In this document: in pieces, positions 21,480 through 52,665 of the stretch
Numbering within the stretch: position 1 is the stretch's first letter
Layout: each line of letters opens with the position of its first letter
Assembly: GCF_006542275.1 (NCBI RefSeq)
Contig: NZ_CP041217.1
Span: forward strand, 5,086,501 to 5,150,500
Length of the DNA stretch: 64,000 bases
From: Saccharibacillus brassicae
Lineage (GTDB): Bacteria > Bacillota > Bacilli > Paenibacillales > Paenibacillaceae
Direction of reading: 5' to 3'
Program-made: the position numbers and the translations under genes
The notes under the pieces: model-generated
What the model was told of the DNA's origin: nothing
The model's input: the letters and a program-made list of their open reading frames with translations, nothing else
The model's database searches: none

Positions 21480-22202
21480 ATGGGTCGTAAATGGAATAAT
21501 ATCAAGGAAAAGAAAGCTTCCAAAGATGCCAATACAAGCCGGGTATATGCCAAATTCGGCGTCGAAATTTACGTGGCAGCCAAAAAAGGCGAGGTCGATC
21601 CCGAATCGAACCGCGCGCTGAAGGTCGTGCTGGAGCGTGCCAAAACCTATAACGTGCCAAAAGCGATCATCGACCGCGCCCTCGACAAAGCCAGAGGCAG
21701 CGGCGACGAGACGTATACGGAACTGCGCTACGAAGGCTTCGGACCGAACGGCGCGATGGTCATCGTCGATACGCTGACCAACAACGTCAACCGGACCGCT
21801 TCCGACGTGCGCGCCGCATTCAGCAAAAACGGCGGCAACCTCGGCGTCAGCGGATCGGTCGCGTACATGTTCGACGAGACGGCCGTTATCGGCATCGAAG
21901 GCAAAGACGAAGAGCAGGTGCTTGAGCTGTTGATGGAAGCGGACGTCGATGCCCGCGACATCATGACCGAAGACGAAGCGGTCATCATCTACGCCGCGCC
22001 GGATCAGTTCCACGCCGTGCAGGAAGCGCTGCGCGCATCCGGAATCGAAGACTTCACGGTCGCCGAGATCACGATGCTGCCGCAGACGTTCGTCTCGCTG
22101 TCCGAGGACGCGGAGAAGCAGTTCGAGAAGATGATCGACGCGCTGGAAGATCTCGAAGACGTGCAGCAGGTGTATCATAACGTCGACTCGGAAGAAGAAT
22201 AA
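21480..22202 (+). CDS. YebC/PmpR family transcriptional or translational regulator
   Basis: 240 aa. The N-terminus [20 protein letters not shown] and the block [20 protein letters not shown], then [20 protein letters not shown], are diagnostic of YebC. Members bind DNA as regulators, and YebC proteins have also been linked to translation of proline-rich stretches. This sequence follows the YrbC-like subfamily of Firmicutes (start MGRKWNNI rather than MAGHSKWANI). The gene is monocistronic with its own terminator at 22249-22279. Confidence 0.93.
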
Positions 22203-22248
22203 GCGGCGGCTTCGGCGCCGATCCTTATTCGGAACCTGTCGATCAACG

Positions 22249-22279
22249 AAGGAACGGCTTTTGAGCCGTTCCTTTTTTT
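22249..22279 (+). terminator. Terminator after the yebC-type gene
   Basis: AAGGAACGGC / GCCGTTCCTT with a TTTTGA loop and a run of seven T. Confidence 0.9.
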
Positions 22280-22321
22280 GCGTCCAAAAAAGACGGGGAG
22301 CGGCGGCGGGAGAGGCATCCC

Positions 22322-22462
22322 ATGTAGCAGTGCAAGTTTGCCACGATCGATGTCTACTGCAATCAGGATTATCCGGTCGGCAAAGTTCTTCAATCGCTCG
22401 GGCAGAATTTGAACCAAATACGGGTGCAGGAGTTGATAAAATCCAAACAAATAGATTGATCT
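22322..22462 (+). pseudogene. Degenerate coding fragment at the left edge of the accessory island
   Basis: The frame starting ATG-TAG (22322) then reads QCKFATIDVYCNQDYPVGKV and on to TGA 22462 (about 44 codons). The translation looks protein-like (ordered hydrophobic pattern) but its only ATG is directly followed by a stop. I treat it as a decayed gene. The next 400 bp to 22910 contain further protein-like scraps (for example around 22620-22740) without an intact gene. Confidence 0.35.
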
Positions 22463-22910
22463 ACAATACATTGACTGCATCGCGCGACAAGTGAACGCTA
22501 CCTGTCATGTCACGAAAAGCGAAGTGAATGTGGAGCAGATCGCAGGCAGAGCAGAATCCAAACCTGACGAAAGACGATAAGGTAACGCATCGGACGCGAA
22601 AGGGACTCGGCGAGGGCAAAGTATAGTGCTTTTCGAAGAGCGGCCGTCGCGCGCAAATCTATTGGCCAGAGAGCAAAGTAAATGGGACCGGCAGTATGGC
22701 GGAATGTATGATATCGCGAACCTTATTAAAGTCGAATCGACTTAAGCTTTTTTAAAATAGGCCCAGCGACATCCTTTACAGATAGTTCGAACCAAACTGT
22801 TGATCACAAAGATTTTCTGTCTGAATCTTTGACTGACCTCATTTTTAAAGTCCTCCTCTATGATTAATAACTTTCCAGCCTAAACATCGCGGTGATTTAC
22901 TGCTCGCTAT

Positions 22911-23207
22911 ATGGATTATGGCTTGGCAACTGCGCAGCACAAGCTGGTTCAGCTGCTGGAGGAGTACCCGTTGGACGTTATGTTCCGTGACTGGGAGGAA
23001 AAGGTGCGCGGCATGAAGGTCTGGTGGCGAGATCAGCCGGCAGTCATTCAATACGTCAATCCAGAGAGTAAAGAACTTTGGATTACCCTGGAAGGTATCG
23101 AGCGGTTCTTGGCTCCTCGCAGTTGGGGACAATCGGACTACGAAGAATACGAAGATGGATTGTACGTAGATATGCTTTCGAAGGAGATCGGTTGGTACCG
23201 AGAATGA
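22911..23207 (+). CDS. Hypothetical phage-type protein, 98 aa
   Basis: ATG 22911 to TGA 23207. Acidic, aromatic-rich soluble protein (YPLDVMFRDWEEKVRGMKVW in the first half, WGQSDYEEYEDGLYVDML near the end). No clear ribosome binding site is seen, so expression is uncertain. GC is lower than in the flanking core genes. Downstream are clearly broken phage-like genes, so it probably belongs to the same prophage remnant. No family recognised. Confidence 0.45.
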   Translation: MDYGLATAQHKLVQLLEEYPLDVMFRDWEEKVRGMKVWWRDQPAVIQYVNPESKELWITLEGIERFLAPRSWGQSDYEEYEDGLYVDMLSKEIGWYRE

Positions 23208-23231
23208 CATGAGTCACATAGGGGAATGGAG

Positions 23232-23678
23232 ATGCCGAGAGTTTATATCGATCCGAAATACGTCGACCTGGCAAAGAAGAACGGGATCGGCGAAGGCACG
23301 TTCCGCAGCCGGATGAACGACCGTGGCTGGTCGCCGGAGAGGGCAGCGACTACGCCGGTTCAAAAGGCCGGTAACGTTTAAGGTAAATGGAATAAAGCGA
23401 ATGAGGAAAAGACGGAGGACGAGATCGACTATGCCCGCCGGAAAGAGGTTCCGATCGACGTCCAGCGGAGCAGCCAGCGCGGCGTGAAGATCGAATTCTG
23501 GAGCCAAGAAAAGATTGCGGCGCACCTGGCGGCGATTGGTCCGGACAAGAACTTTGAATCGCCCAAACGAAAAGCTCGCAGATCGATATCTTCGCATCGC
23601 AAGAAAATCGGTGTGCCAGCGGGCACTATGATAAAAAGGGCAGCAGTCTATAGAAAACATGTGAAAATAATTACATGA
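23232..23678 (+). pseudogene. Phage-type gene broken by an in-frame stop
   Basis: ATG 23232 (after GGGGAATGGAG) opens a frame that reads MPRVYIDPKYVDLAKKNGIG and continues to TAA 23379-23381. The same frame then continues as coding-like sequence (KWNKANEEKTEDEIDYARRK and KIEFWSQEKIAAHLAAIG) to 23678. Frame and protein character are kept across the stop, so a single nonsense change seems to have split one gene. The final 25 residues look off-register, suggesting further decay. The N-terminal part resembles small regulatory or packaging-region proteins of Firmicute phages (inference). Confidence 0.6.
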
Positions 23679-23702
23679 TAAATTCATAATAGGAATAAAT
23701 GA

Positions 23703-24002
23703 ATTCCTAAACCCGAAAAACGGGATTTCATAGAGACGATGTGCCTGGCACTTGAGCGCCGAACTGAACGGACGAGTCGGGAAGAGGAAGTGTGGCGTAT
23801 CTACCGGCGTATGGTTGACGACATTAACACGGCCATCAACTTAATTGCAGACGAAGAAGTTCAGCGCGTGTTGCAAAAGCGATATTTCCGCTTCCGGACT
23901 TACAAAACGACGATCTTCCGATTTGCGAGTATGAGCGCACGTACTATGGATCGACGTATTGATAAAGTGGTAGAGACCATTGCTGAGTGCCTTAAATTAT
24001 GA
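23703..24002 (+). pseudogene. ArpU/RinA-like phage late regulator that has lost its ATG
   Basis: The frame from 23703 reads IPKPEKRDFIETMCLALERR and ends in a helix-turn-helix-like C-terminus (YKTTIFRFASMSARTMDRRI, ending ECLKL). An ATG occurs only 12 codons in (23739), after protein-like sequence, and the codon where Met would be expected (23703) is ATT, with no good ribosome binding site. The sigma-70-region-4-like C-terminus fits phage late transcriptional regulators of the ArpU/DUF1492 type (moderate confidence). Translation from ATT or from the internal ATG cannot be excluded. Confidence 0.45.
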
Positions 24003-24240
24003 GGAAATGAAATATTAAAGACCTACTGAGTGGTGTTATCTGCTAAAGGTAAACATTGATTAAATTTTTTTTAAATTGAGTAACTACTTTCTGCATAGAC
24101 GCGTTATAAAACTAAATCAACTTTTTCAAATACATAGAAATTGATTTTTAAAAAAATCTAAAAAGGGTTTACTTGGGAAAATAAATAGATTTAAAATTCA
24201 GGAATATATATTTATTTTTTTGAACCATGGAGGTTTTTTT

Positions 24241-24897
24241 ATGAGAAAACGTTCTTTCATAATTGGATTTTTAATGATTTCAGTAATTATTATCTTGTCT
24301 TTCTCGTTTTATAAACAACAGCCCTTTTCATCAGCTAAAGATTTATCTTCAGAAGTCGAAGTTTTAAGTTACGAATCATTTGTAGATTTGAATCAATCCT
24401 TTTTCGCGCTGTTAAATGCGGAATATAAAAGTATTATTCAACCTAAAAATCTTGGTGCTACGGTTTATTCTGCTAATGAAGGAGGAGAATGGGCTGAAGG
24501 AGAGATGGATTTAATGGGAGGCGATGATATAGCTAGACCTTTAAAACAAAAATATGAACTCATAAATATTAAATCTGGATTTTACACGCAAATTGTGTTG
24601 ACATATTCCCCACAGCTAACTGAGAAAACTTATTTAAATACAACTCGGATTTATGGAACAGAAAACGAAGATTCTCGGCTGCCTAAAGAAACAACAGTAA
24701 TGGATCTAGCTATAAATACTTTAAGTTTTCCTGGAACCTTTATTGAAATTTTGACAACACCTATATATGGAAGCAACATGAAGCAAACAAGTGATAAACA
24801 ACTGAAAATGGTAAATGAAAATGCAGATATCACGCGAACGGTTCAAAAATTTTTCAATCAGCAGAGTAGCTACGTAAATAAGGAAAAGAAAAATTAA
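24241..24897 (+). CDS. AT-rich membrane-anchored protein of unknown function
   Basis: 218 aa from ATG 24241, which sits 8 nt after GGAGG; the in-frame ATG 24220 has no such site. One N-terminal membrane segment (RSFIIGFLMISVIIILSFSF) is followed by an extracytoplasmic domain of about 180 residues with no cysteine. GC is about one third, far below the roughly 60% of the window, and codons are AT-ending, a strong sign of recent acquisition from a low-GC Firmicute. It has its own terminator at 24920-24947. No family recognised; it lies in the prophage-remnant island. Confidence 0.7.
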   Translation: MRKRSFIIGFLMISVIIILSFSFYKQQPFSSAKDLSSEVEVLSYESFVDLNQSFFALLNAEYKSIIQPKNLGATVYSANEGGEWAEGEMDLMGGDDIARPLKQKYELINIKSGFYTQIVLTYSPQLTEKTYLNTTRIYGTENEDSRLPKETTVMDLAINTLSFPGTFIEILTTPIYGSNMKQTSDKQLKMVNENADITRTVQKFFNQQSSYVNKEKKN

Positions 24898-24919
24898 ATT
24901 AGTAATTTGGAGGATTTGA

Positions 24920-24947
24920 AGATTGTCCTGAGGACAATCTTTTTTTA
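24920..24947 (+). terminator. Terminator after the AT-rich gene
   Basis: AGATTGTCC / GGACAATCT stem with a 3-nt loop and seven T. Confidence 0.85.
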
Positions 24948-25070
24948 TAAACCAAGAACTGAGCTTAGGGGTTTTTATTCCGAGAATGTTTACATTCAGC
25001 TCCAAGATAAAAATATCCTAGCAATAGAAATCAAAAAAATGTAAATAATAAAGGAGTTAAACCATTTGCT

Positions 25071-25104
25071 AGATCAAGCAAGATCAAGCAAGATCAAGCA
25101 AGAT
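25071..25104. repeat. 10-bp tandem repeat (AGATCAAGCA)
   Basis: Three exact copies of AGATCAAGCA and a fourth partial copy. The sequence directly after (25110-25150) reads like a degraded second copy of the C-terminal end of the ArpU-like gene (VEDIETITE, then a stop). The region 24948-25435 has no intact gene; it holds this repeat, the fragment and a weak hairpin (TCCAC/GTGGA plus T run) at 25342-25364. Confidence 0.7.
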
Positions 25105-25435
25105 GAAGCGTGGCTAGTCGAAGACATTGAAACCATTACGGAATGACTGAAGCTATAGAGATACTAAATGCCTAGCTCGCCGTCAGATGATGAAGAGAAT
25201 GAAGAAAGCGAGTGGGCGAAATTGTGACGGTAAGTTGAAGTTAACATGGCGCTAAAACGGCGCAAGAACAGACTTACAGTAAGAGACATAGGGAGCAGCG
25301 CTCCCGGGTGTCCCTGCTACCCCTTATTCCGGCAGGAATCGTCCACACCGAGTGGAGCTTTTTTTTCTGGCTCCTATGCACAAGTGCGAGCGCCTAAAGA
25401 GCGCACGCATATTTAATGGATCGGAGGAATGAACG

Positions 25436-25585
25436 ATGACTCATGGAATTGGAGGAAGTACGCCTAGTATTCATGGAGCAGGTGGTAGTTCGCCCGGAAT
25501 TCACGGAGCCGGAGGCGGCGCACCTGCAGGTCACGGAGCTGGTAGTGGTGCCTTTAATCATGGTGCGAGTGCCGGCGGATTCTAA
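25436..25585 (+). CDS. 49-aa Gly/His/Ala-rich peptide made of five decapeptide repeats
   Basis: ATG 25436 with a GGAGG site 8 nt upstream, stop TAA 25585, terminator immediately after. After Met-Thr the peptide is five tandem units starting at His 3, 13, 23, 33 and 42, with consensus H-G-A-G-G-x-x-P-x-I (units 4 and 5 shorter). Third codon positions vary between repeats (GGA/GGT/GGC, AGT/TCG, CAT/CAC) while the amino acids stay constant, which argues for selection on the peptide. It has no Cys, no Lys or Arg, no signal peptide and no aromatic residue except Phe40 and Phe49. I do not recognise a family. It could be a structural or spore-associated peptide, a metal-binding (His) peptide or a multi-core precursor; no modification enzyme is adjacent. 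Confidence 0.7.
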   Translation: MTHGIGGSTPSIHGAGGSSPGIHGAGGGAPAGHGAGSGAFNHGASAGGF

Positions 25586-25587
25586 GC

Positions 25588-25622
25588 GATCCAGCAAATA
25601 CGCTGGATCTTTTCTTTTTTTA
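25588..25622 (+). terminator. Terminator directly after the decapeptide-repeat gene
   Basis: GATCCAGC / GCTGGATC, 8-bp perfect stem, 6-nt loop, T-rich tail (TTTTCTTTTTTT). It begins 3 nt after the stop codon. Confidence 0.88.
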
Positions 25623-25761
25623 AAGCTCCTCTTACGATTGCCCACTATAAATGAGAGCGATAAACGAAATTGATCTTATGGGATTTCGCAAGGCGGCGAG
25701 CTGGACTGATCTTCGGTGATCGGCGAAGGGCCACTGCCGTCCATTATGGAAAGGCTGATGA

Positions 25762-26001
25762 ATGGACCAGAAAAGTATTTTGAAAGCAGCGCAAGAAGAA
25801 TCGAAGCGTACCGGGCTCAGCGTATCCGTGATCATCGGTCTTTGGGACGAAGAAGCCATCTTCGGTACGGCGCCTGCGGCGAAACGTTCGAAGCGGTACA
25901 TGATTCAAACGACCGGCAAGGTTGCTCAGGCTACGCGCAGAGCGGGTACAGCGATCGGCACGCCATTTAAGAGTATTCTGCCGCGCATCCAACAGAAGTG
26001 A
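25762..26001 (+). pseudogene. Phage lysin-like (glucosaminidase) remnant
   Basis: ATG 25762, 79 codons. The first 35 residues (ILKAAQEESKRTGLSVSVII, then GLWDEEAIFGT) resemble the start of the glucosaminidase/FlgJ-type catalytic domain (A-x-x-S-x-x-TG-x-x-x-S-V-x-x-x-x-x-x-E-x-x-x-G). After that the frame turns basic and unrelated, consistent with a frameshift or truncation. I consider it a decayed phage or cell-wall hydrolase. No strong ribosome binding site is visible. Confidence 0.4.
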
Positions 26002-26130
26002 CCCGCTCCGCCTGGTACATTACCAGAGCTACGGCAAACCAGGCGGCGAATTCAAAAGCGATCCGCGCGCAGCGATCGTTACGGCTGTAGAAGACGGAAA
26101 ACAAGAGATCGTCAGTCTGTGGGTATTCGC
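26000..26130 (+). pseudogene. Phage-type protein fragment (VHYQSYG...GGEF)
   Basis: An in-frame stretch without its own start reads LVHYQSYGKPGGEFKSDPRA and AIVTAVEDGKQEIVSL, similar in style to a small tail or host-lysis-region protein of Paenibacillus phages (from memory, not searched). It runs without a stop into the upstream region of rhaB and loses protein character near 26130. It marks the right edge of the prophage remnant. Confidence 0.4.
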
Positions 26131-26212
26131 TTTTTATACGAATATTCATTTTTGCAATGTCCGAAAAAAAGAAATAATCCACGGAAAACCACAGATTATA
26201 GAAGAGATATTG

Positions 26213-26241
26213 TTGACTGAAAAGAAGAACGCAGGTACGAT
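26213..26241 (+). promoter_or_regulatory. Sigma-A promoter of the rhamnose operon
   Basis: -35 TTGACT (26213-26218), 17-bp spacer, -10 TACGAT (26236-26241), about 47 bp before the rhaB start. No obvious regulator gene is adjacent. Confidence 0.6.
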
Positions 26242-26287
26242 AGAAGCACAAGATATGGATTTTAGTCCAACAAGCGGAGGAATGGAC

Positions 26288-27766
26288 ATGGCGCAGGCGA
26301 TCGCCGTCGATATCGGGGCTTCCAGCGGCCGGCTGGTCGCGGGTACCCTGATCGAAGGCAAGTTGGAATTGCAGGAGCTGTATCGTTTTGAGAACGCTTT
26401 TACACGCAAAGACGGGCATGATTACTGGGAAGTCGACGCTTTGCTTAACGAGCTGCTGACCGGATTGAACCGGGCCCGGCTCGCCGGCATCGATGCCTGC
26501 ACGCTTGGGATTGATACGTGGGGCGTCGATTATGTGCTGCTGGACGAAGCGGGGGAGAGACTGCACGACGTCTACGCGTACCGGGATGTCCGGACGGCGG
26601 GAGCGCCGGATCGGTTTCACCGCGAGCACCTCGATCGGCAGGCCGTGTACGGCAGGACCGGCATTCGGGAGATGAGTTTCAATACGCTGTATCAGCTGTA
26701 CGTGCACGATCGCGAGCAGCTTCGGCACGCGCGGCAAATTATGCTCGTGCCGGACTATTTGTATTACCGCCTGACCGGCCTAGCGATCAACGAAGCGACG
26801 AACGCGTCCACGACGCAGCTGCTGAACGTACATACGCGGGAGTTCGACGCCGAGCTGCTCGGCCTGCTCGGTCTGGGGCGCGAACAGTTTGCGGCCTTGA
26901 CGCAGCCGGGGACACGGCTCGGCGGCTTGAAGGCGGAGCTCGCGGAGAGCGGACGTTACCCGGATTGCACGGTCATCGCCGTGCCGACGCACGATACCGC
27001 TTCCGCCGTCGTCGGCGTGCCGGCTGCGCCGGGCCGGAGCTGGGCGTATCTGAGCAGCGGCACCTGGTCGCTGCTCGGAGCCGAGCTGGCGCAGCCGCTG
27101 AACAGCGAAGCGGCGCGGCAGGCCGGGTATACGAACGAATGGGGCGCTTACGGCACGTTTCGTTTTCTACAGAACATTATGGGGCTGTGGATGATCCAGG
27201 AAGTCCGGCGCGAAGAAGGGAGCGGCCGCAGCTTTGCGGAACTTGCGGACCGGGCCGCGCAGGAAGAACCGTTCCGGAGCCTCGTTCCGTGCAACGACGA
27301 ACGGTTTCTGAATCCGGCCAGCATGACGGAAGCGATCCGGCATTTTTGCCGCGATAGCGGACAGCCCGTGCCGGAAGATGCGGCCCGGTTGGCCCGGTGC
27401 ATCTTCGACAGCCTCGCTTTTACGTATCTCGATGCCCTGGTGCGCTTGGAAGAGTTGACCGGCGTCTCGTACGACGTGCTGCATATCGTCGGGGGCGGGT
27501 CGAACAATCGGCTGCTGTCGCAGCTGACCGCCGATCTGCTGGGCATCGAAGTCCGCACAGGGCCGTCGGAAGCGACCGCGATCGGCAGCATCGCCGTGCA
27601 GCTGATCGCGTCCGGCGCGCTCGCGGACGTGGCGGAAGCGCGGCGCGTGATCGCCGATTCTTTTCCGTCCGAGAAGTACCGCCCGAACCCCGTTCCCGGC
27701 AGGGAAATGCTTGAGCGGCGCTGGAGAACGTTGACCCAATTGAATCCGAAGGAGAGCTTGCGATGA
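26288..27766 (+). CDS. rhaB: Rhamnulokinase
   Basis: 492 aa from ATG 26288 (GGAGG 7 nt upstream). The reading frame extends further left into phage-like sequence but that is not part of this gene. It is a FGGY-family kinase: N-terminal phosphate loop [30 protein letters not shown] with the catalytic Asp, [25 protein letters not shown] and the C-terminal [18 protein letters not shown]. The F-N-T-L-Y-Q-L motif and length match RhaB. It phosphorylates L-rhamnulose at O1. The stop overlaps the rhaA start by 4 bp (ATGA). Confidence 0.95.
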
Positions 27767-29040
27767 GGGACAAGGTCGAAACGGCTTATCTGGAAGCCAA
27801 ACAATTGTACGAACGGCACGGGGTGGACGTCGAAGCCGCGCTGCGCAAGCTTGCGGGCATCAAGATTTCGCTGCACTGCTGGCAGGGCGACGACGTGCGG
27901 GGCTTTCTGCGGCGCGGCGACGCGCTGGGCGGAGGCATCGCCGTCACCGGCAGCTATCCCGGCCGGGCGTCGACGCCGGGCGAGCTGCGCTCCGATCTCG
28001 AGCTTGCGCTGTCGCTCATTCCGGGCAAACACAAAGTCAATCTGCACGCGATCTATGCCGATACCGACGAAGACGTCGATCTGGACGAACTCCAGCCGCG
28101 CCATTTCCGGGGCTGGATCGATTGGGCGAAGCAGAACGGGCTCGGCCTCGATTTTAATCCGACGCTGTTCTCGCATCCCAAAGCCGAAGACGGGTTTACG
28201 CTCAGCCATTCCGATCCGGCGATTCGGCAGTTTTGGATCGACCACTGCAAAGCGTCCCGCCGCATCGCGGAGAGTTTCGGCCGCGAGCTGGGGCAGCCGT
28301 GCGTCACCAATCACTGGCTGCCGGACGGGTACAAAGACACGCCGGTCGACCGCTGGTCGCCGCGCGCCCGCCTGAGAGAAGCGCTGGACGACATTTTCGC
28401 CGACGAAATCGACGAAACGTATAACATCGATGCCGTCGAAAGCAAGCTGTTCGGCATCGGTTCGGAGAGCTATGTCGTCGGCTCGCATGAATTCTATATG
28501 GGCTACGCCATGAGCCGGGGCAAGACGATCTGCCTCGACGCGGGCCATTTCCATCCGACGGAAGTGATCTCGAACAAGCTGTCTTCGATTCTGATGTTCG
28601 CCGACCGGCTGCTGCTGCATGTGAGCCGCCCGGTACGCTGGGACAGCGACCACGTCATTACGATGGACGACGAACTGCTGGAGATTGCCCGCGAACTCGT
28701 CCGCGGCGACCTGCTGCCCCGTACGCATATCGGGCTCGATTTCTTCGACGGCAGCATCAACCATGTCGCCGCCTGGGTGATCGGCGTGCGCAATATGCAG
28801 AAAGCGCTGCTGCGCGCGCTGCTCGAACCGGTGGAGCAGCTCAAGCGGATCGAACTTGAGCGGGATTACACGTCGCGCCTGGCACTCGTCGAAGAGTTCA
28901 AGTCGTATCCGTTCGGCGCGATCTGGGATCAATTTTGTCGGCAGGCCGGCGTGCCGGTGCGCGAAAAATGGTTGGACGAGGTCAAACGCCACGAGAAAGA
29001 AGTGCTTCAGCCAAGAGAAGCCGGGAGGGGAACGCCATGA
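27763..29040 (+). CDS. rhaA: L-rhamnose isomerase
   Basis: 425 aa, ATG overlapping the rhaB stop. The N-terminus ([20 protein letters not shown]), [44 protein letters not shown] (20 residues) and the metal-site segments [24 protein letters not shown] and [11 protein letters not shown] identify RhaA, which converts L-rhamnose to L-rhamnulose with divalent metal. The length agrees with the family (about 420 aa). The stop overlaps the rhaD start by 4 bp. Confidence 0.96.
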
Positions 29041-50671: not shown

Positions 50672-52404
50672 AATAGCTGCGCCACGGCAGTTATTCTCGC
50701 CGGAAACGGAGTGAATGAGCGAATAACTGCGCCACGACAGTTAGTTGCACCGAAACTGGAGTGAATGAGCGAATAGGTGCGTCACGACAGTTATTTGCAC
50801 CGAAACTGGAGTGAATGAGCGAATAGCTGCGCCACTACAGTTATTTTCGTCGAAACTGGAGCAAATGGACGAATAACTGCGTCACGACAGTTATTTTCGC
50901 CTAAGCACCCTTTAAGCCGCCGAAAGAGCTAATTAAGTGTACTGTCGCACTTATTTGCTGAATAGAGAAGCTGTTCGCCGAAATAACTGTAGATCCGCAC
51001 TTAATCTGCGGCCCAAGCGACTGACTGCATAGCGCACATAAAGAGAGGAGCGTTTGCCCCGGCGGCAGACGCTCCTTTTCGATTTGCTGTTTGATTTGCT
51101 GTTTGATCGACTACACGATGAATCCACTTTGTCCTCTTCTATGAGGCAGGGGAGTTGACCAAAATAACCGCGCGGAGGCAACAAAGCGACAACTATTGCC
51201 GGCTGGGGTAGACCTGGTCCACGAATAACTGCGTTACGACAGCTATTTGCATCGGAAACGGAGTTAATGCGCGAATAGTTGCGTCACTACGATTATTTTC
51301 ACCGGAAACGGAGTGAATGCGCGAATAGCTGCGTCACGACAGTTATTTGCACCGAAACTGGAGTGAATGAGCGAATAATTGCGCCACGACAGTTATTTTC
51401 GCCCAAAGCACCTTTTGAGCCGCCGAAAGAGCTAATTAAGTGTCCTGTCGCAGTTACTTGCCGATTCGAGAAACCGTTCGCCGAAATAACTGCAGATTCG
51501 CACTTAATCTGCGACCCAAGCGACTGACTGCATAGCGCACATAAAGAGAGGAGCGTTTGCCCCGGCGGCAGACGCTCCTGTTTGATTTGCTGTTTGATCG
51601 GCTAGACAATGAACTCACTTTGCCCTCTTCTATGAGGCAGGGGAGTTGACCAAAATAATCGCGCGTAGGCAACACAGCGGCAACTATTGCCGGCTGGGGT
51701 AGACCTGGTTCACGAATAACTGCGTTACGACAGTTATTTGCACCGGAAACGGAGTTAATGCGCGAATAGTTGCGTCACTACGATTATTTTCACCGGAAAC
51801 GGAATGAATGGACGAATAGCTGCGTCACGACAGTTATTTGCACCGAAACTGGAGCAAATGAGCGAATAGCTGCGCCACTACAGTTATTTTCGCCCAAAGC
51901 GTCCTTTGAGCCGCCGAAAGAGCTAATTAAGTGTCCTGTCGCACTTATTTGCCGAGTCGAGAAGCTGTTCGCCGAAATAACTGCAGATCCGCACTTAATT
52001 CCCGTTCCAAGCGACTGACTGCATAGCGCACATAAAGAGAGGAGCGTTTGCCCCGATGGCAGACGCTCCTGTTTGATTTGCTGTTTGATTTGCTGTTTGA
52101 TTTGCTGTTTGATCGACTATACGATGAATCCACTTTGCCCCTCTTCTATGTGGCAGGGGAGTTGACCAAAATAATCGCGCGGAGGCAACAAAGCGACAAC
52201 TATTGCCGGCTGGGGTAGACCTGGTCTACGAATAACTGCGTCACGACAGTTATTTGTACCGGAAACGGAGTGAATGCGCGAATAGTTGCGTCACTACGAT
52301 TATTTTCACCGGAAACGGAATGAATGGACGAATAGCTGCGTCACGACAGTTATTTGCACCGAAACTGGAGCAAATGAGCGAATAGCTGCGCCACTACAGT
52401 TATT
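50672..52404. repeat. Array of seventeen 24-nt hairpins with exact 50-bp period, in four higher-order repeats
   Basis: Hairpin units of form AATARCTG-N8-CAGTTATT start at 50672, 50722, 50772, 50822, 50872; 51224, 51274, 51324, 51374; 51715, 51765, 51815, 51865; 52231, 52281, 52331, 52381. Within each cluster the step is exactly 50 bp. Each cluster is followed by the same about 170-bp spacer (CTAATTAAGTGTCCTGTCGC and on) and a conserved hairpin (GGAGCGTTTGCC / GGCAGACGCTCC at 51047, 51550, 52041 and 52557). Last-unit to last-unit distances are 502, 491 and 516 bp. Apparent 82-codon frames here are repeat artefacts. The whole stretch 50567-52730 has no gene. Confidence 0.9.
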
Positions 52405-52580
52405 TTCGCCCAAAGCGTCCTTTGAGCCGCCGAAAGAGCTAATTAAGTGTCCTGTCGCACTTATTTGCCGAGTCGAGAAGCTGTTCGCCGAAATAACTGC
52501 AGATCCGCACTTAATTCCCGTTCCAAGCGACTGACTGTGTATTGCACCTAAAGAAAGGAGCGTTTGCCCCGATGGCAGAC

Positions 52581-52665
52581 GCTCCTTTTTGATTTGCCGT
52601 TTAATTTGCCGTTTAATTTGCTGTTTGATTTGCCGTTTGATTTACTTTCTGATTTGCCGTTTGAT
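52581..52665. repeat. Variable 12-bp tandem repeat TGTTTGATTTGC in the array
   Basis: The motif TGTTTGATTTGC (with C/T variants) follows each conserved hairpin in a different copy number: about 2 at 51080, 2 at 51579, 4 at 52070 and 6-7 at 52586-52662. Such copy variation suggests replication slippage. Confidence 0.75.

Follow-up and report, generated by a model that had tools for sequence, protein, structure and literature searches.

The stretch of the Saccharibacillus brassicae genome analysed here (64,000 nucleotides, hereafter the window) carries a gene for a 49-amino-acid micropeptide built of Gly/His/Pro decapeptide repeats (25436-25585, + strand). The ORF runs over 49 codons from ATG to TAA and encodes MTHGIGGSTPSIHGAGGSSPGIHGAGGGAPAGHGAGSGAFNHGASAGGF. 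A Shine–Dalgarno sequence, GGAGG (25423-25427, +), lies 8 nt 5′ of the ATG, and an intrinsic terminator stem-loop (25588-25609, +; T-run to ~25620) begins 2 nt past the TAA. The 45 nt from 25586 to 25630 fold at −14.3 kcal/mol (z = −4.5), which none of 200 shuffles equalled. The ORF, the 8-nt spacing and the hairpin fold together bear out the initial annotation, which had described a GGAGG site, 49 codons and a directly following terminator. No sigma-70-type promoter passed a consensus scan 5′ of either this gene or the related copy described below. An Rfam scan over 22000-29000 returned nothing at the peptide and one sub-threshold match elsewhere (22203-22280).

Repeat units begin at His3, 13, 23, 33 and 42. 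These had been annotated as five tandem decapeptides; the five starts stand, but full ten-residue units that include both GG and P are limited to units 1-3. The fourth (HGAGSGAFN) has nine residues and contains neither GG nor P, unit 5 is HGASAGGF, and the regularity of the repeat weakens beyond unit 3. At a lag of ten residues, 20 of 39 positions are identical. None of 20,000 residue shuffles reached 20 at lag 10, and the maximum over lags 3-24 was 19; the ten-residue period is therefore not due to composition. Glycine accounts for 18 of the 49 residues, followed by alanine (8), serine (6) and histidine (5). Tyrosine, tryptophan and cysteine are absent, histidine is the only charged residue, and no hydrophobic signal-like stretch is visible by eye. 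Single-sequence AlphaFold2 gave a mean pLDDT of 49 and a pTM of 0.12 with no confident part, although a low pLDDT from a single sequence is no proof of disorder. The peptide has no family match in Pfam, PHROGs, PADLOC, NCBIfam or PDB sequences, in agreement with the earlier statement that no family with this repeat was known to its author.

The gene lies in a prophage remnant (22303-26127), a setting that had also been proposed from the sequence and that is supported by pieces matching one prophage of the host genome in the same order, at 73-91% identity; the one exception to this order is the second-best match of a regulator piece. On the 5′ side are a phage gene remnant that lies in different frames (23220-23729, +; 90% DNA identity to the complete prophage) and a shortened phage regulator ORF of 87 amino acids (23739-24002, +; phrog_21810, with a sub-threshold RinA-like match), which shares 76% amino acid identity with a 130-aa ORF of the complete prophage. 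Within the remnant's run of accessory genes, these are followed by a 225-aa low-G+C ORF (24220-24897, +) with an N terminus that is hydrophobic by eye and no family match in Pfam, PHROGs, PADLOC or NCBIfam. It is likely to be another phage accessory gene. This ORF sits in an island of 28-36% G+C, near the edge of which (25071-25109) are about four copies of AGATCAAGCA with 96% matches.

A phage-derived piece (25271-25409, +), which contains a terminator-like site at 25342, abuts the 5′ edge of the peptide cassette. It is 89% identical to the complete prophage, where it lies ~4 kb from the peptide copy. Downstream of the cassette are a conserved block of ~105 bp that is apparently non-coding (25640-25746, +) and a truncated remnant of a phrog_2293-like gene (26008-26127, +; 91% DNA identity to the complete prophage). 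Directly 3′ of the conserved block is a 79-aa ORF (25762-26001) with no match in Pfam, PHROGs or NCBIfam, nor in the complete prophage. The peptide frame is intact among several shortened or broken genes of the remnant. The cassette stretch (25409-25746) is only 76-78% identical to its prophage counterpart, and the pieces on either side are 89-91% identical. Elsewhere in the window, a large nested tandem array (50672-52665; 491-bp period, 3.8 copies at 90%) is built of 50-bp units with a GCGCCACGACAGTTATT core, plus 12-bp TTTGATTTGCCG-type repeats.

A related copy in an apparently complete prophage

The matching prophage is apparently complete (C1, ~5437-5496.5 kb, ends estimated) and, by PHROGs, includes genes for an integrase, a DNA methyltransferase, the small and large terminase subunits, a portal protein and a major head protein. 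It contains a gene related to the window peptide (host genome G000, a single contig of 5.6 Mb, C1:5472231-5472341; 73% identity over 37 aa, E = 2.4e-11). This copy (L005, 2110-2345, − strand) is split: a first frame of 38 aa, MTHEIGGNTPGIQGVGGSAPGIHGAGGGAPSTHGSGGW, overlaps a second frame of 40 aa, MVRNIHGIGGGSPTGHGVGGGAERDNDTDPRNNGSGSGAF, by ATGGTAA, and the repeat is retained in both halves. The second frame also surfaced as a separate weak match (L004, E = 0.93). The split may reflect a recent frameshift, two coupled frames or an assembly error, and the copy is possibly decaying. One IMG/VR contig (2883746974_000002) is 100% identical to this prophage over 4501 bp, but it is probably from the same strain as the host and thus provides no independent confirmation of the split frame. 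A whole-genome search found no third copy in the host genome.

By eye, the related copy has about seven units across both frames, compared with about five in the window copy, so that the variation in repeat number expected among homologues is seen for the two copies in this genome. Across the seven ten-residue units of both copies, GG and Pro are conserved in 7/7 and the leading His in 6/7 (also by eye). Common to both copies are the ending GSGSGAF and GASAGGF before the stop and a 27-nt stretch 5′ of the ATG (25409-25435 in the window) with few differences. The related copy also has a terminator 2 nt past its stop, the hairpin there being equivalent but not the same.

In the complete prophage, an Xpf-like sigma factor gene lies immediately 5′ of the related copy, and the stop of the sigma gene overlaps a TATAAT upstream of the peptide gene. 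The related copy precedes the packaging genes; 3′ of it come the conserved block, a 100-aa ORF, a phrog_2293-like gene and the terminase. Xpf drives the late operon. The Xpf-like gene matches phrog_1190 (E = 1.5e-41) and 19 phage records, mostly annotated as sigma factors, and scores 129.7 bits against the NCBIfam model for a positive control sigma-like factor (NF005385), which is below the cut-off of 136. The likeness to Xpf of PBSX-like phages, which is termed a sigma-like PBSX factor in an excerpt of PMC4243946, belongs to this upstream gene and not to the peptide, for which no counterpart was found in phage records. The sigma-factor region is absent from the window between the piece at 25271-25409 and the cassette. 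We infer that the sigma gene was probably lost from the remnant by deletion.

The conserved block also occurs where the cassette is absent. Compared with the window, it is 85% identical in the complete prophage and 89% identical in a related IMG/VR locus, L110 (87% when taken over 117 bp). It had no match in the phage collection, and a 33-bp match in one further genome (G099) is probably due to chance. For folding, the complete-prophage version scores z = −3.1, the L110 version −1.9 and the window version −0.4. The block is possibly a late promoter or a packaging site.

An IMG/VR search with the sigma factor returned seven loci, one of which is the own-type prophage; L110 is the closest of the others (79%). 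There, the end of the sigma gene is followed within ~6 bp by the conserved block, and both the peptide gene and the terminator are absent. This one empty site, in which the flanks are present without the peptide or terminator, suggests that the two form a removable phage accessory cassette (a ‘moron’). These three elements differ in their neighbouring accessory ORFs: the window has the 225-aa ORF, the complete prophage has a putAbiC protein together with ORFs of 217 aa and 237 aa, and L110 has a putAbiC protein. The putAbiC-domain (abortive infection-like) proteins are encoded upstream of the Xpf-like gene (L005 3206-4117, −; L110 3542-4756, +). Among seven more distant terminase loci, five have other Shine–Dalgarno-preceded small ORFs in the 1.5 kb before the terminase and two have none.

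Codon changes between the two copies

Over their first 36 codons, the window gene and the related copy differ at 33 nucleotides, distributed 5/5/23 over codon positions 1/2/3 (binomial p = 2e-5). The Nei–Gojobori (NG86) estimates for this comparison are dN 0.16 and dS 4.2, the latter saturated. Extending the comparison to 48 aligned codons (30+10+8) gives 7/5/26, with dN 0.15 and dS 1.36 (binomial p = 1e-5), although the last eight codons alone (3/1/2) have no third-position excess. The dN/dS comparison proposed for homologues, run here on the two host copies, thus gives dN 0.15-0.16 against a dS of 1.36 to saturated; the ratio is rough, given the saturation of dS and the possibility that repeat units are not position-by-position orthologues. 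Nine amino acid differences were observed between the copies, whereas 33 randomly placed changes produce 19.7 on average and at least 13 in every one of 5000 placements.

The 5/5/23 pattern indicates that selection acted on the protein sequence of the peptide. We conclude that this sequence appears to have been under past purifying selection; the direction is clear even if the ratio is rough. The initial annotation had drawn the same conclusion from the array units alone. Synonymous differences between units do occur: in pairwise comparisons of units 1-3, synonymously and non-synonymously different codons number 3/3, 2/5 and 5/4 of 10. A synonymous excess that is clear between the gene copies is, however, not clear within the window array.

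The same codon pattern bears on whether the gene is a decaying or neutral phage ORFan that has no present function, with the intact window frame a chance leftover. The position of the window copy among deleted and broken phage genes, the split frame of the related copy and the result of the promoter scan are all consistent with decay. The third-position bias between the copies, however, points to past selection on the protein, so this explanation can hold only for the present state of the gene, and we consider it unlikely.

Distribution of the decapeptide

Conserved decapeptide homologues across Paenibacillaceae had been named in the initial annotation as possible support, but none were found. 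Protein searches gave no match at E 0.01 in 58 relatives (own genome excluded), only three weak matches in two of the 15 other genomes of the genus (E 0.012-0.49) and only two weak matches, with E-values of 0.004 and 0.008, across 393 further genomes from the family; the matched frames of these two lack the decapeptide. An order-level sample (391 other genomes, in part the same as those of the family set) gave none at E 0.001. Re-reading the weak matches in frame, with the exception of L009 (G007, E = 0.49), led us to reject those in other genomes (L007, L008, L107 and L108), as their matched frames contain no decapeptide and longer frames span the sites. A third match in the own genome (C1:1293422; L003, E = 0.0145) was rejected likewise, with no decapeptide in the matched frame and a longer frame at the site.

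No relative of the peptide was found in the phage and plasmid collections, by protein or by DNA. The tblastn searches of these collections were run with the low-complexity filter on and the Gly-rich query may therefore have been masked, a doubt that extends to the protein scan of GTDB contigs, which was also a tblastn. By contrast, the whole-genome protein searches recover the related copy, and the negative result on distribution rests on them.

Neighbouring genes offered a further route to possible relatives. Relatives of phrog_2293 occur at 67 viral loci, including the own-type contig, and at 24 places in 19 genomes, two of these in the own genome; terminase relatives comprise 14 loci including the prophage itself. 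A crude Gly/His screen of 100 loci picked up other Gly-rich frames too (L021 to L075), most of them long. Two successive repeat units, sought in six frames of 141 loci, were confined to the own genome and the identical IMG/VR contig, apart from a single pair in each of L101 and L102 and a match with an internal stop in L126. In the terminase-relative loci L128-L140, we found no Shine–Dalgarno-preceded ORF of 20-130 aa with at least 22% Gly. Repeat DNA patterns matched three stretches of IMG/VR in one form and four in another, with the own-type prophage in both sets; the others (L101, L102, L124, L125 and L126) were judged to be chance matches.

With these search caveats, convincing relatives were recovered only from the own genome and the identical viral contig. 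The absence is fairly firm for the family, sampled at one genome per species, and weaker elsewhere. Both copies are known from a single genome, and conservation across the family was not observed. In the published literature, the titles and abstract openings of the full-text matches listed contain nothing on this peptide, and the words glycine, repeat and moron do not appear in the main text of a review of phage small proteins (PMC11323111).

Interpretation of the cassette

Our preferred interpretation builds on what can be read directly from the DNA: the ORF and its signals, the second copy, the codon pattern, one empty site and the shared order of pieces. From these, it seems reasonably probable that the locus is a real protein-coding moron cassette of a temperate phage that specifies a soluble, multivalent accessory peptide. 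Good support exists for the narrower claim that the peptide gene is an accessory gene of a phage and was once under selection. The cassette, consisting of a ribosome-binding site, a short ORF and its own terminator, would be flanked by an Xpf-like sigma factor gene on one side and the conserved block on the other, and the window copy would have survived in one such prophage that deletions have reduced to a remnant. We propose that the product is a soluble, disordered and flexible chain in which the repeated H-G-x-G-G-x-x-P units may serve as multivalent weak binders of one cytoplasmic target, the identity of which is a guess. The peptide would not be a core phage part, and may instead provide an accessory benefit to the phage or lysogen, for example by interfering with a host process or a rival phage. 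The window copy has a different upstream region from the one in the complete prophage, which makes its expression uncertain; it may now be silent.

Morons are defined as accessory genes inserted between phage genes (excerpted text of PMC2629481). The cassette resembles them in having its own terminator and in being present or absent at one place in related phage elements. Its product, by contrast, is a 49-aa repeat peptide, and the consensus scan for sigma-70-type sites recognised no promoter. A bolder version of our interpretation, which we put forward tentatively, is that the two genes are the first members of an undescribed phage-encoded tandem-decapeptide family, in which repeat number would set the valency of a disordered multivalent inhibitor or scaffold acting in lysogeny or late infection.

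The best structural rival is a leader-peptide attenuator, in which the ORF and terminator would form a translation-sensitive switch between the sigma factor and the late genes and the peptide itself would have no job. The 2-nt spacing from stop to stem in both copies and the location directly before the packaging genes fit this idea, and the RNA of the whole cassette, terminator included, folds somewhat better than shuffled sequences (z = −2.1, 6 of 200 as good), leaving some room for an RNA role. However, short distances between stop codon and terminator are common in Firmicutes, L110 has the flanking parts without the ORF or the terminator, no antiterminator was identified, and selection at the protein level extends across the repeat. 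We therefore regard attenuation as quite unlikely, and return to the accessory peptide as the preferred reading. We also considered the vrRNA of VIPR systems, which in an excerpt of PMC13142463 consists of 9-16 GGY units at 5-nt steps; the longest GGY run on either strand of 25401-25620 is one unit, and this candidate was rejected.

A pH- or metal-responsive condensate, or a His-based metal binder as suggested in the initial annotation, would be in keeping with Gly/His/Ala/Pro low-complexity repeats and with the lack of a confidently predicted structure. The histidine-rich beak proteins of squid, with GHGxY and GAGFA modules, are likewise short, modular Gly/His low-complexity repeats (in the portion of PMC6884462 consulted). 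The window peptide has no evident sequence relation to them and differs in having ten-residue units with Pro and no Tyr. Phase separation of the beak proteins depends on the GHGxY tyrosine, and peptides GH-25 and GA-25 remained in solution (same portion of PMC6884462); a condensate of the beak-protein kind is therefore unlikely for a peptide with neither Tyr nor Trp. Against metal binding, one repeat His is replaced by Gln in the related copy, and GG and Pro are better kept than His. Taken together, we see condensation or metal binding as very unlikely. A spore or surface peptide, another of the earlier suggestions, fits poorly with the phage accessory position and with the absence by eye of a signal-like stretch. 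Very improbable, too, is a multi-core precursor of a modified (RiPP-like) peptide, which the tandem near-identical units had suggested: the repeats begin at residue 3 with no leader-like region before them, the peptide has no Cys, and no maturation enzyme was recognised among the window and prophage neighbours scanned with Pfam.

Many small proteins that act on bacteria come from the accessory genes of phages. Tandem-repeat micropeptides, however, are easily dismissed as low-complexity noise, and they can be masked in searches. The present case stands at one orphan gene type in one genome, in which a second copy with saturated synonymous change is evidence that such a repeat peptide was selected as a protein. 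If our interpretation is true, a phage peptide of 40-80 residues would have a valency tunable through its repeat number, which would be simple to test.
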